A stretch of 64,000 bases of DNA, taken from positions 1,154,501 through 1,218,500 of the forward strand of contig NC_036455.1 in the NCBI RefSeq assembly GCF_002775205.1. The letters are read 5' to 3'. The notes below the pieces were generated by a model. It had not been told where the DNA came from. It searched no databases and worked only from the letters and a program-made list of their open reading frames with translations. Positions 41,592 to 57,737 of this stretch are shown here, one piece after another. A program made the translations under genes and the position numbers. The stretch comes from Xiphophorus maculatus (Eukaryota; Chordata; Actinopteri; Cyprinodontiformes; Poeciliidae). Each line of letters starts with the position of its first letter. The stretch's first letter is position 1.

Positions 41592-44500
41592 TCAGGAGTC
41601 GGAGAGAGGGCCGAGGACGGCGATCGCCTCGATTTCCACCAGCGCACCCTGCAGAGGAGACAAGACAAGGTTCCATGCATGCAAGCATTTCTATAACATA
41701 AGAGCCATTTAAACTGAATTAAACTAAATTTGATCAAATTTGCAGCTCAACTAACATGTAATTTTCGTTGCTCTAGACCAGGAACCGCTCATATAATTAA
41801 TATGAAAAATACTTTTGGAGCTAAGCTTTACTGAAAAGATGTATTCTTGTTGTTTAAATAAAATATCACACTTCTCAAATAACTAAAAATATATACTTGA
41901 CTGCATAATTTTGTAGTTGAGAATTGTTTCGTTAAGTCGGTATGTTGCATTAGTATTGTTGGTATTGAATGTATTGTAGTATTGTAAGTATTGTATGACA
42001 GGAACCTACAATTAAGGAACTGATTTGCATTATTTACCAAACAGGGTGACATTATTTAACCTTTTTAAAAATCCTTTAAAATCCTAATGCCATTTGTCCA
42101 CACAAAAGAGAAATGTAATCTTCCTAAAAACTGCTCAAAAATATTTTCTGATATTTTTCTCCATTTGGAACAAGTCGATCTTGTAAAGCAAAAATATTCA
42201 CATCAATATAAAAGTTCTGAGGGACTTTAACCCTTTGAAGTATATTTACATAGACACTGCTTTTAATTAAAAAAAAAAAGTCTAAAAAAATACTATATAA
42301 ATACTGTCATTTGCATAAAATACTGTACGTAGTTTTTGATTATTGTTGTTAGTCAATAAATGGGTCAATATTTGCTACAAACATTTTCTTACCTCATTCA
42401 TTCGTTTGTTGGATTGAAACAACGTGACTTTTTGTTGTTAGTTCTTTTTATATTTTGCCAATTTAAGGAACTGGCATGGTAAGTGTAAAAAAATAAAGTA
42501 GTAAAAAAACAAATAGCACAAAATTCTCTTAAGAGCAAATGCAACTTGTTCATGGAACAGATTGTTTCTCTATTCAGAGGTCTCAGTTTGATATATTTTC
42601 ATTCAACACTGGCAGAGGAAACAAATATTTTCTGTGATAATCTAAAATAACTACGAGCCTCGCAAATCTGAATCTTTACAGCTTCAATTAAAGTCCCTGA
42701 AACTGCAGGAAAATTGCTGCAGTGCTTTTAATAAACATCATTTCGGTAACAAACCAACTAAAGAGGTTTTATAGACAGATAATGCAGAGATTAATTAGCG
42801 AGCCCATTCGTATCCTTAAATGCGGGTCATATTTAAAAATGAAGCAGACGAATCTGCAGGTTTGGATCGGTACTCACTCTGGGCAGAGCGGCAACCTGGT
42901 AGGCAGCTCGGGCAGGAAAATTAGTGCTGAAAACTGGGAGAACGGAAGAAAACAAAGTTTATAGCTGCTTATTAAGGATGTTTTGTGTTTTGCTAAAATA
43001 ATTTTTTAAACATCTTTTTAATAATGAATAAACTCAGCCTCAAATAATCCTTACTTCAGCCATTAGTTGTATTTGTTTCACTGTGAAGTCAGAGATCATC
43101 AGTTTGGCTCATGTGTAACACCAGATTAAGGCAGATAAACATATTTTTATACGTTACATATGGAAGAGGGGCTGAAATGTAAAAGGGCTCTTCAAGCTGG
43201 AGGAAAACGCTATGAATTAACCTAATATACACACTTTATTACCTTTTGTTTGCTTCTATGTCAAATTTTTCAAAAAGGAGATAAACTTATTGAAAATTTA
43301 ATCAATATTTGAGTACAAGTGGAAGTTTAAGAGCAGGGATAATAATCTGATGAACTGCAGAATCTGGCTTTGTTGTATTTAAATGTTTTTTAAAAAATCT
43401 AAACTAAAGCTTCTCTACCTTTTTTTAACCTCCTGAGACCCTGCATCCTCATATGAGGACATTACATTTTTGTAAACACAGATGTAAATAATAACATTGA
43501 TTGAATGGTCTTATCGTCACACAGATAGACCCAATGTCCTCGTCTGAGGACATTGGGTTTTGAGATAACCACTTATTGTAGAAGGCTACAACTTCATTTT
43601 TAGGCTAATTGGGTCCTTATGATCCCAAATGACAAGGAGAAATGTATATGCAAAAACAGACCCATTGTCCTCATATGAGGGCATTGGTTTTGACATAGTT
43701 CAAGAGCACATAGACAGCTAAAATTTAATTTCAACTAAAATTAGGTCATACTAATCCCAAATAGTAAGGAGACATAAAAAATGCACATCAAACAAAAGCC
43801 TGGGTCTCAGGAGGTTAAAGGTCTTCTAAAGCTTTTCTGTGGATTTTGACTGCCTTTCATCTTATTATTTGATTCCAGTTTAGTGCTGGCTCCTGGCTAA
43901 CATAAAGTAGAGGACAAAAATAGAAAGGGTCACATTTTACATTAAGAGCGTTAATAAAATAATTAAAATCTGACTTGTTGAAAGCAAAATATTAAGAAGT
44001 GAGGGATTATTCAAGACTTTTCCCCATTACTATAGTTATGTTTGGTCACTTTGACCAAATTAAAGGGGTCATTTGGATTTCCTTTGGTTTGCTCCGGACA
44101 CTTCCTTTCTGCTTCCTCCCTGCAGAGTCAGGGAATGTTTCCTGGTTTGCAGGTGTGAATTGCACCTGCAGGGAGGCAGGAGCTCGGCGTGTCGAGTCAT
44201 TGTCCCGAGGAGCAGTGCTTGCTGGGAAAGTTTGGGTTACATCAGCGTGCCTGTGTAGCGGTGTCCACTTACAACTCTGGACTCAGCCGGTTCCATTACA
44301 CCGGACTGTTGTAATCCAGGAGGAAAAGTCCTAGCACTTCCACTGCATTGATACAGCAGAGGGAGAACTAAACGTCAGATTCGGAGTCAAGGGTCAGGGG
44401 TCACAGCCGATGCTTTGGTAGACCAACGTTGGTGCCTTGCTGCAGGGAGGTCCAGGGTTCAATTCCCATCCTGTTATCTCTGTGCATGTTTCTGCCTCTT

Positions 44501-45151: not shown

Positions 45152-47059
45152 TACAGTCAAGATTTCTTTGCATTGACTTATTGGACATAATACATAATGC
45201 TTTTGAAACTAGCAATTTGGTTTAGGTAATATTTAGTATATTTTACAGTTCATCCATAAAGCAAGTCATGTTTGTGTTTTTTATTGTGATCATAGAATGT
45301 TATAAATCCAGCTTTTATTTGTAATACATGTTTTATGTTACAGAACTGAACAAGATGAGCAATCACTAGAAATTCCCATCTAGGTTGACGTTTGCATAAC
45401 ACACACACACACACACACACCCCCACACACACCCACACTTAAAAAATCTTTTTAGAACTCAAAATTAAGACATTAAGGGAAAAAAACATCTGGGGTTGAT
45501 AAAGTGTTATTAAACACATTCAAATGCTTTATTTAATTGCAACAAAAGCCATTATTAATTTACATGGAGTTGGGAGCTACTCAGAAGAAAACGTTATTGA
45601 TGCTTTTGCTTAAAATTAATCTAAATTCCCCATCTATCATATTAAATACAGACTTACAAGTCTTGTAGACGTCGTTGACGGAGTTGAAGTCGTTTATGTC
45701 CTTCAGCAGCACTGTGGTCTTCACAACTAAAGTGAAACAATTTGGGATTTTGAGTTCAACGTTAAAACCAAGCGATTAAATTAAAAAGGAGGCAACCGAC
45801 AACAGACTGTGCAGAATGTGTAAAGTCTGACCGTTACTGTAGTCACAGCCTGCAGCTTTAAGGATTTCCCCCATGTTGCTCAGAGCCTGAGTAGAAAGGG
45901 AAAGGAGACTGAAGACTGTCTAAGAGTAAATAGTTCAATCTGAGGCCGGGTGAAGATGTCTTTCTGTTTGTGGGTCACCTGTTTGGTCTGAGCCTGAACT
46001 CCTCCATCCACCAGCTGACCGGAGGCCACGTCCATCCCAATTTGACCCGAGACGTACATGGTTCTGTCCGCCACCACCGCCTGGCTGAGTGGGACACACA
46101 AACACAGACAAACTATGTGAAGATGTGAACATTTTAGCAGACAAAATGTGACGTCTGGGCTTTTTAAGTACCTAATAATTGATTCTTTAATGTGAAAGTA
46201 AAATAATTCACAACAAACTGACATGAATAACTTAATGTGTATTAGATCTACCAGTAATGTCATTTAAAATAGCGCTAATCCATTTTACATTATACTAAAA
46301 GATTACGTTGAATAAGGTTGCTACTACCTTCACTCACCACAAGGGGGCGCTTCCACCTCCCCAAATTAAGTTAAACAGCTAATGTACTAAAGAATTTCAC
46401 CAATCAAGTCTAGTTTGAACATTTCAATAATACAGTTCAGATTGACGTTATATTTAGCATCACTATTACAAAAATACTTCCAGATTTGATCCTGATTAAT
46501 GTGCGGACAAAAAAAAGCAACAAAAAAAAAAAGCACCTGATTTAATCTGAAACAACTGATTGGCTAAAGCAAGAACACCCGCAGTTTATTCAAAGGCACC
46601 TACGAAGCATTTGTTCAGTTTGCAACTTAAAAAAAAAAATCCGCATTAAATAAAAACAAAACAAAGTTGCCTTTTATTCTTATTTTCCAGATAAAGTGGG
46701 CATAACCTTACCTATAAATGCCCTGCCTCACCGGGGCTTTCGGTGTGTAAATGATTTTCCGAGGAGTTGCTGCCATTTCAAGTCCTGTCTGCTTCGCAGC
46801 GATTCTTCTCCTCTCTACAAAGTTACATTTTTTGCTCGGTGAGCAGCAGGTGAGTTCACTGGACAGGAAGTCCCGCCCCCGAGCAAACATGTGTGGTCCT
46901 CCCCCCCCCCCCCCCCCTAACACACTCAAACTTTCCAGATCTTGCAGCAAAGACATGAAAGAGTTGCAGATTTCTTGTTTTGAACTTCTCTTACCTGTAC
47001 GGACCGATAGCAGCTGGAGCTGACGTGGTGTGAACGAGCTTTCTGTTGAGCGCAGACAT
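41592..47059 (-). CDS. rida: 2-iminobutanoate/2-iminopropanoate deaminase (RidA/UK114)
   Basis: Hydrolyses reactive enamine/imine intermediates from PLP enzymes; trimeric chorismate-mutase-like fold (family knowledge). Minus-strand exons for the canonical form: 46995-47059, 45979-46084, 45832-45886, 45658-45726, 42878-42933, 41592-41648; 135 aa (human 137). Blocks include RKLVHTTSAPAAIGPYS, MYVSGQIGMDVASGQLVDGG, ALSNMGEILKAAGCDYSN, VVKTTVLLKDINDFNSVNDV, FFSTNFPARAAYQVAALPR and GALVEIEAVAVLGPLSDS. The PARAAYQV arginine that grips the substrate carboxylate is present. Exon 5 must use the acceptor before TTTTCAGC, since the nearer CAG breaks the frame. A second homologous first coding exon lies at 46712-46776. 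The gene lies tail-to-head downstream of stk3. Confidence 0.95.
43425..43818. mobile_element. piggyBac/Kolobok-like MITE with TTAA duplications
   Basis: Perfect 13-bp terminal inverted repeats CCTCCTGAGACCC (43429-43441) and its inverse (43802-43814) are directly flanked by TTAA on both sides (43425-43428, 43815-43818). About 386 bp, with three internal short palindromes around 'atgtcctc...gaggacatt'. No coding frame. The TTAA duplication is the mark of piggyBac or Kolobok elements. Confidence 0.88.
45085..45148. repeat. (TA)n microsatellite
   Basis: About 64 bp of TA dinucleotides in rida intron 4. Confidence 0.97.
45401..45437. repeat. (AC)n microsatellite
   Basis: AC dinucleotides with C interruptions in rida intron 4. 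Confidence 0.95.
46337..46350 (+). promoter_or_regulatory. CTCF-like motif in rida intron 1
   Basis: CCACAAGGGGGCGC differs from the CTCF core CCACCAGGGGGCGC at one base. It lies between the proximal alternative first exon (46712-46776) and exon 2. Binding is inferred. Confidence 0.5.
46712..46776 (-). CDS. rida: rida alternative first coding exon (1B)
   Basis: 65-nt open stretch with ATG at 46776, encoding MAATPRKIIYTPKAPVRQGI then Y and AG| before a strong donor (GTAAGG). Length and phase are identical to exon 1A (46995-47059), and 10 of 22 residues match it (including R6, K7, T11, A14, P15, G19, Y21, S22), so it is a duplicate of the first exon. Spliced to exon 2 it gives a full RidA with a different N-terminal strand; the loop IGPYS becomes QGIYS. 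Use would need its own promoter in 46777-46994, a region holding a run of about 18 C. Confidence 0.8.
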
Positions 47060-47344
47060 GTTTTCCTCTCTCTTTTTTCAGTGCAACTCAAGTGCCATGA
47101 GTTGAATGGAAATGGCTGCGCAACAGCTTTTGGGAACACTGTTTAAAAAAAAAAGACACCGTAAAACTCAGACTGACAGCGCAGGGAGGAAGTTTACAGC
47201 GGTGTAAAAGCGTGAGTGAAATGGCATTGCGCCTATAGAAGAACAAGTACGGTAAAGATTACAGCTTTTATGTAGGTCACAAACCTCAGGATCAAAGTTT
47301 ATTTACGAAAGTCATAGATAAGAAACCAAGGTCTGATAACTATG
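47060..47344 (-). promoter_or_regulatory. rida promoter and stk3-rida gap
   Basis: About 290 bp between the rida start codon and the presumed stk3 poly(A) site; the rida promoter must lie in it. No named motif stands out. Confidence 0.4.

Positions 47345-50055: not shown

Positions 50056-57737
<7,682 letters not shown>

Follow-up and report, generated by a model that had tools for sequence, protein, structure and literature searches.

RidA is a trimer whose active sites lie between the subunits, and the substrate carboxylate is bound by Y21, R107 and E122, as described in PMC7311433. The same account gives Salmo salar two isozymes encoded by six-exon genes. SsRidA-1 (137 residues) is the product of ridA-1 on ssa10, a locus whose flanks have kept matn2, pop1 and nipal2. 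SsRidA-2 (135 residues) is the product of ridA-2 on ssa14, where stk3 is the sole old neighbour kept. The SsRidA-2 sequence comes from cDNAs; the two salmon cDNA sequences attributed to ridA-2 both correspond to SsRidA-2 (PMC7311433). In SsRidA-2 the 15-20 loop is altered and the pocket is strongly positive. Among the sequences compared in that paper, Pro9 and Ile20 are unique to it, and its Arg17 and Gln18 sit where small hydrophobic residues are usual. Its authors consider the 15-20 loop crucial to specificity, and their structure and assays link the loop to altered substrate preference. SsRidA-2 is far less active on most nonpolar imino acids, and with the imine of L-Glu it is the most active among the enzymes compared. 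Its low stability is tied there to Pro9 in strand beta1 (PMC7311433). We take structures 6TCC and 6TCD to be SsRidA-1 and SsRidA-2, respectively, because Pro9, Arg17, Gln18 and Ile20, which PMC7311433 gives for SsRidA-2, are all present in the 6TCD chain.

A second kind of system bears on the present locus. Tandem duplicated exons are taken here as adjacent exons with homologous regions of at least 7 residues. For human genes, PMC9741552 gives 236 events of substitution between such exons, 40 of them N-terminal. It also describes the fate of such exons after gene duplication, with CACNA1F/CACNA1S, the FYN family and PGM1/PGM5 as cases. Here, we describe a rida gene of Xiphophorus maculatus that carries a canonical and an SsRidA-2-type first coding exon side by side. 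The window is the whole 64-kb stretch of DNA that was analysed.

Two first coding exons in one rida gene

The two first coding exons, 1A (46995-47059) and 1B (46712-46776), lie on the minus strand. Each is 65 nt long, starts with ATG and ends in AG before a donor, GTAAGA for 1A and GTAAGG for 1B. A gap of 218 bp (46777-46994, minus), with a GC box at 46879, separates them. Exon 1A encodes the canonical N-terminus MSALNRKLVHTTSAPAAIGPY(S). Exon 1B encodes an SsRidA-2-type N-terminus, MAATPRKIIYTPKAPVRQGIY(S), with R17, Q18 and I20. When the serine completed by exon 2 is included, the peptides of 1A and 1B, MSALNRKLVHTTSAPAAIGPYS and MAATPRKIIYTPKAPVRQGIYS, agree in 10 of their 22 residues, the same value on recounting as in the initial annotation. 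The DNA identity is 31/65. The exons common to both forms are also on the minus strand: exon 2 (45979-46084), exon 3 (45832-45886), exon 4 (45658-45726), exon 5 (42878-42933) and exon 6, which includes the stop (41592-41648). With exons 2-6, either first exon gives 408 nt and 135 aa in an unbroken frame. Read-through past the donor of 1A meets a TAA at once, and the same is true past the donor of 1B. The initial annotation had proposed two homologous rida first coding exons of the same length and phase, with good donors, each able to join exon 2 in frame. All of these features are found as it described them, and both joins give an intact RidA of 135 residues. At the DNA level, the pair of first exons is real.

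The chance level was evaluated by scoring the 37,654 open 22-codon stretches of both strands against the N-termini of SsRidA-1 and SsRidA-2. Against SsRidA-1, 1A scores 73, 1B 44 and the third-best stretch 27. Against SsRidA-2, the scores are 70 for 1B, 29 for 1A and 27 for the third-best stretch, 1A being hardly distinct there. For either salmon N-terminus, the two exons are the top two of all stretches. The 64-kb window contains two open segments of the form ATG-60nt-AG/GTRAG, namely 1A and 1B. A chance ORF is rejected on these scores and on the two exons being the sole segments of that form. With the ten identities counted above, and as the two best RidA N-terminus matches in the window, the adjacent exons share a homologous region of at least 7 residues. 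Their frame and donors would permit use as a substitution pair in distinct transcripts. No duplicated flank was found around 1A and 1B, the direct repeats near the exons being merely A-rich.

Both predicted products are recognized by the family profiles. TIGR00004 gives 175.4 bits for the 1A form and 162.3 bits for the 1B form (cut-off 106.25), and PF01042 gives 147.2 and 138.2 bits (cut-off 27.3). In gap-free alignments to 6TCD, Y21, R107 and E122 are retained in both. The two spliced forms, as predicted, belong to the Rid family, and imine deaminase activity is predicted for each.

The substrate loop and the salmon isozymes

The best match among solved structures is 6TCC for the 1A form and 6TCD for the 1B form. 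Exon 1B encodes R17-Q18-G19-I20-Y21-S22, exactly the loop of SsRidA-2. It is identical to SsRidA-2 (6TCD) at 14 of 22 residues, and at 11 of 13 over residues 10-22. Exon 1A is identical to SsRidA-1 (6TCC) at 14 of 22 residues. Six residues are common to 1B and SsRidA-2 and absent in 1A, SsRidA-1 and 8QOU; one of the six, Ala2, is also present in the first exon of the second rida gene of this genome, on C3 (see below). In prokaryotic relatives, positions 17, 19, 20 and 21 are A, G, P and Y in 80/80 sequences, a sample made of the best 80 of at least 488 confirmed matches to the 1A form and leaning to canonical sequences. Exon 1B retains G19 and Y21 and is altered at positions 17 and 20. A pattern of the AP-x-RQGIYSQA type had 0 matches in viral contigs, a result of little evidential weight.

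R17, Q18 and I20 are all present in the 1B peptide, and residue 9 is Ile. The low stability ascribed to Pro9 is therefore not predicted for 1B, which is classed as SsRidA-2 type by its loop and locus and not by the stability trait. Because cDNAs are the source of the salmon SsRidA-2 sequence, transcription of a 1B-type exon does occur in another fish. The proposal made earlier, that a duplication of exon 1 gave two N-termini with different substrate-pocket loops, is borne out by the SsRidA-2 loop of 1B and by the apparent constraint on both exons.

Differences between the two salmon enzymes affect 15 of the 22 residues of exon 1 and 15 of 112 elsewhere (Fisher p 4e-7). Two control pairs were compared in the same way, with a mixed outcome. 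The 1A form and the C3 product, both canonical, differ at 8/22 positions in exon 1 and 19/111 in the body; SsRidA-1 and 8QOU differ at 5/22 and 27/111. The salmon contrast fits first exons that parted earlier than the remainder of each gene did, or on a separate course, and is supportive of this, not decisive. Fast change of one exon would fit the contrast too. It is also weakened by the canonical 1A/C3 pair, which likewise differs more in exon 1.

Divergence and constraint

We computed NG86 dN and dS against the C3 paralogue, for exons that are small (about 18 synonymous sites) and with dS near saturation. Exon 1A gives dN 0.24 and dS 1.68 (dN/dS about 0.14), exon 1B dN 0.44 and dS 1.33 (about 0.33), and exons 2-6 dN 0.14 and dS 1.60 (about 0.09). 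Neutral decay of the C3 first exon was then simulated in 20,000 runs at assumed numbers of substitutions per site. At 0.5 per site, the observed identity was kept in 85/20,000 runs for 1A and 268/20,000 for 1B; at 0.8 per site, in 0/20,000 and 1/20,000. These assumed distances are safe for the paralogue test, because the paralogue dS is about 1.6. Judged from sequence comparison, exons 1A and 1B both look constrained against the C3 paralogue, although either may have fallen silent recently.

A second neutral simulation used 100,000 runs each against the salmon sequences, again at assumed distances. At 0.5 per site, the frequencies for 1B against SsRidA-2 are 0.0013 (14/22) and 2e-5 (11/13, residues 10-22), and those for 1A against SsRidA-1 are 0.0017 and 0.0004. 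At 0.2 per site, they rise to 0.20 and 0.036 for 1B and to 0.22 and 0.10 for 1A, so that neutrality is not rejected for either exon at low divergence. The synonymous difference pS is 0.82 between 1A and 1B and 0.66 between the bodies of the paralogues, both near saturation.

Neighbours of the locus and a second rida gene

The stk3 gene is located 3 kb upstream of rida on the same strand. Its exons, corresponding to kinase and SARAH parts, are found at 50056-54762 (minus), and the gene probably extends further. The kinase exons fall within 52662-54762. The SARAH end (50059-50259) has its best matches with STK3, not STK4. No further gene was seen by eye among ORFs of at least 40 aa in the 3 kb between rida and stk3. 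Unlike the description of salmon ridA-2, the window also holds mtdh (plus strand, LYRIC match) and rpl30 (minus strand, L7Ae-family match). The name rpl30 within its Pfam (L7Ae) family is our assumption, assigned by eye, and two other plus-strand genes are presumably laptm4b and erich5, also named by eye. From 1 to 63200, the window reads mtdh (+), laptm4b (+), rpl30 (-), erich5 (+), rida (-), stk3 (-) and a TPR gene (+). The last is a probable TPR gene at 58.8-62.1 kb, with matches below the Pfam cut-off. We take this order to follow that of human 8q22. Relative to the latter, pop1 is missing here and lies at the second rida locus, and none of matn2, nipal2 and kcns2 was seen in the window; for matn2, the ORFs of 22.1-29.6 kb were inspected by eye.

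In the window's own genome (704 Mb, 101 contigs), two loci match rida exons: the window itself, on C13, and one on C3. One extra weak match on C5 has an E value of 2.6 and six internal stops. None of the 3 genome matches is a retrocopy that runs across the 1B junction, and that possibility was rejected. The C3 gene has six exons with one canonical first exon, MAALIRRIITTAKAPAAIGPY, and encodes 136 residues. Its first exon is identical to 1A at 14 of 22 residues. On the rida strand, the 40 kb read around it contain no 1B-like segment, the next-best score being 24. At C3:28824735-28826576, rida (ridA-1) and pop1 are arranged head to head, with start codons about 0.6 kb apart (pop1 exon by eye). 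The two genes perhaps share a two-way promoter that is no longer at the window locus. As for C-termini, the window product ends in GPLSDS (135 residues) and the C3 paralogue in GPLNDTS (136); the window end resembles the GPISES of SsRidA-2.

The POP1_N family is matched on C3 alone in this genome, and the SARAH family on C13 and C20 only, where the C20 match may be stk4 or a second stk3. The window locus is stk3-adjacent and pop1-free. Because of these stk3 and pop1 neighbours, we assign the ridA-1 layout to C3 and the ridA-2 layout to the window. The initial annotation, correct on the exon duplication and the loop difference, had missed both the stk3-linked ridA-2 layout and the second, canonical rida gene. 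Nothing observed favours the difference in localisation that it had raised as a possibility. The orthology of the window gene to ridA-2 rests mainly on neighbours, and the fit is imperfect, with mtdh, rpl30, laptm4b and erich5 kept. The length of the product, 135 residues, agrees with SsRidA-2. For exons 2-6, supporting sites with C3 included number 1 for window plus SsRidA-2, 2 for window plus SsRidA-1 and 0 for window plus C3. Without C3, there are 5 for SsRidA-1 plus SsRidA-2, 2 for window plus SsRidA-2 and 2 for window plus SsRidA-1. On these sites, the window gene does not group with SsRidA-2, and a paralogy assignment from exons 2-6 was rejected. Among the bodies of the four fish sequences, that of the window stands furthest apart, at 91-94/111 identities to the others, which share 96-97.

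Start sites, splicing and promoter

No acceptor with a good pyrimidine tract was found upstream of 1B, where five YAG sites have pyrimidine fractions of 0.33-0.60. Because of this, and of the TAA past the 1A donor, 1B most likely needs its own transcription start in the 218-bp gap. The gap presumably holds both the start site and the promoter of 1B. Its GC box at 46879 is one of three in the window, both strands included, and gives a weak hint of a separate promoter for 1B, weak because the CpG ratio of the gap is low (0.39, below the 0.51 of the window).

As for start contexts, G occupies positions -3 and +4 at the 1B start, and the 1A start has A at -3. SsRidA-2 begins at the same MAA as exon 1B. 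Upstream of 1B, its frame continues for 122 codons without a stop and contains two in-frame ATGs (46708-47142, minus), so that no upstream stop marks where the 1B protein has to begin, and a form with a longer N-terminus is conceivable. The open frame crosses exon 1A in another frame, as well as a poly-G tract.

Discussion

We consider it likely that ridA-2 acquired two alternative first exons by tandem duplication, and hence that two RidA enzymes can be made from one gene. The first coding exon of ridA-2 would have been duplicated in tandem long ago. Copy 1A would have kept the canonical loop A-A-I-G-P-Y, and copy 1B would have acquired the R-Q-G-I-Y loop. As alternative first exons, each with its own transcription start, 1A and 1B would both be used and would splice in the same phase to exons 2-6. 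The resulting two 135-residue enzymes would differ solely in their first 22 residues, that is, in strand beta1 and the greater part of the substrate loop. The 1A form would be a canonical imine deaminase with an expected preference for nonpolar imino acids. The 1B form would be SsRidA-2-like, if the specificity of the salmon enzyme can be transferred to it. Exon choice would then probably decide which RidA enzyme the window gene makes. The best reading of the locus is that the difference published for salmon 'paralogues' may correspond here to exon choice within one gene. Since exons 2-6 are common and active sites are formed between subunits, the 1A and 1B forms may also assemble together, giving trimers in which both types of loop occur. 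A wider proposal would be that teleost ridA-2 generally has two isoforms, that salmon ridA-2 hides a canonical 1A and that the published specificity split is an exon-choice switch. We offer this tentatively and lean against it.

Other explanations of the exon pair were weighed. Possibly 1B alone is used now and 1A is a relic that fell silent not long ago; with the canonical enzyme supplied by ridA-1 on C3, ridA-2 could have done without its own canonical form. Such a canonical copy is indeed available elsewhere in the genome, 1A deviates at some positions, with S13 for instance in place of the K13 of SsRidA-1, 8QOU and the C3 exon, and salmon appears to retain the SsRidA-2 form alone, both ridA-2-assigned cDNAs being of that form. 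However, 1A is intact, with its ATG, frame and strong donor, it keeps 14/22 identity to the C3 exon, and its dN of 0.24 stands against a dS of 1.68. Simulation rejects neutral decay of 1A over the age of the paralogue split, so that any silencing would have to be recent. We judge this history unlikely. That 1B is instead a chance open stretch or a dead duplicate, never spliced, is extremely improbable. Neutral decay at an assumed 0.2 per site does leave 14/22 of 1B in 20% of runs, but at 0.5 per site the values fall to 0.0013 and 2e-5. Moreover, the protein that 1B resembles at 14/22 residues, and at 11/13 over residues 10-22, has a cDNA and a crystal structure in salmon.

The arrangement could also be that of an internal mutually exclusive pair, placed behind a shared untranslated 5' exon and served by one promoter. 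Internal pairs are common, making up half of the 236 human cases of PMC9741552. Against this, the best pyrimidine fraction before any AG in the scanned region upstream of 1B is 0.6, and the six exons of the salmon ridA genes equal the number of coding exons of each form here; we hold such an arrangement to be very improbable. The age of the pair is a separate matter. We give even chances to an origin inside ridA-2 after the teleost genome duplication and to an earlier origin with loss of 1B from ridA-1. The 40 kb examined at the C3 paralogue contain no 1B, which speaks for the later date. The pS of 0.82 between 1A and 1B, which is not below the 0.66 of the paralogue bodies, speaks against it, although values so near saturation hardly discriminate. 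A post-duplication origin is compatible with the reading that we prefer, two alternative first exons within ridA-2.

With two such exons, the published story of paralogues becomes a testable story of isoforms, in which one gene has one swappable cassette of 22 residues. The enzyme whose substrate loop this cassette surrounds serves in detoxification and is nearly universal. The 1A and 1B forms would represent a natural loop-swap experiment, the remaining 113 residues being identical. Of the two copies left by the genome duplication, one retains the pair of first exons, and in the second no such pair was found.

Comparison with known systems

The RQGI-loop enzyme is already known from salmon, and the tandem exon swap is of an established kind. 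None of the literature matches listed, mostly from the non-subscription literature, describes alternative first exons for rida in fish by its title or abstract, and PMC7311433 alone among them deals with the fish enzymes. The presence of both exon types at one ridA-2 locus appears to be new among these matches; annotated isoforms may exist.

The 1B form and its locus resemble SsRidA-2 (ssa14, 6TCD; PMC7311433) in the RQGIY loop, the length of 135 residues and the stk3 neighbour. SsRidA-2 was described as a separate six-exon paralogue, whereas the window locus additionally carries an intact canonical 1A. Further differences are Pro9 in SsRidA-2 where 1B has Ile9, and the larger number of neighbours that the window retains on the other side. 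SsRidA-1 (ssa10, 6TCC) and mammalian RIDA/UK114 have the canonical A-A-I-G-P-Y-S loop, as in 1A. The C3 gene is like that of SsRidA-1, with a canonical first exon and pop1 adjoining; 1A instead sits in the ridA-2 locus.

As in the PGM1/PGM5 case of PMC9741552, one duplicate gene has both exons and the other has one. The window gene is also like the human exon-substitution events given there, where adjacent homologous exons swap one short homologous region (PMC9741552). Unlike in those human events, the enzyme here is small and soluble, its first coding exons are the ones involved, and most of its substrate loop lies in the region that would be swapped.
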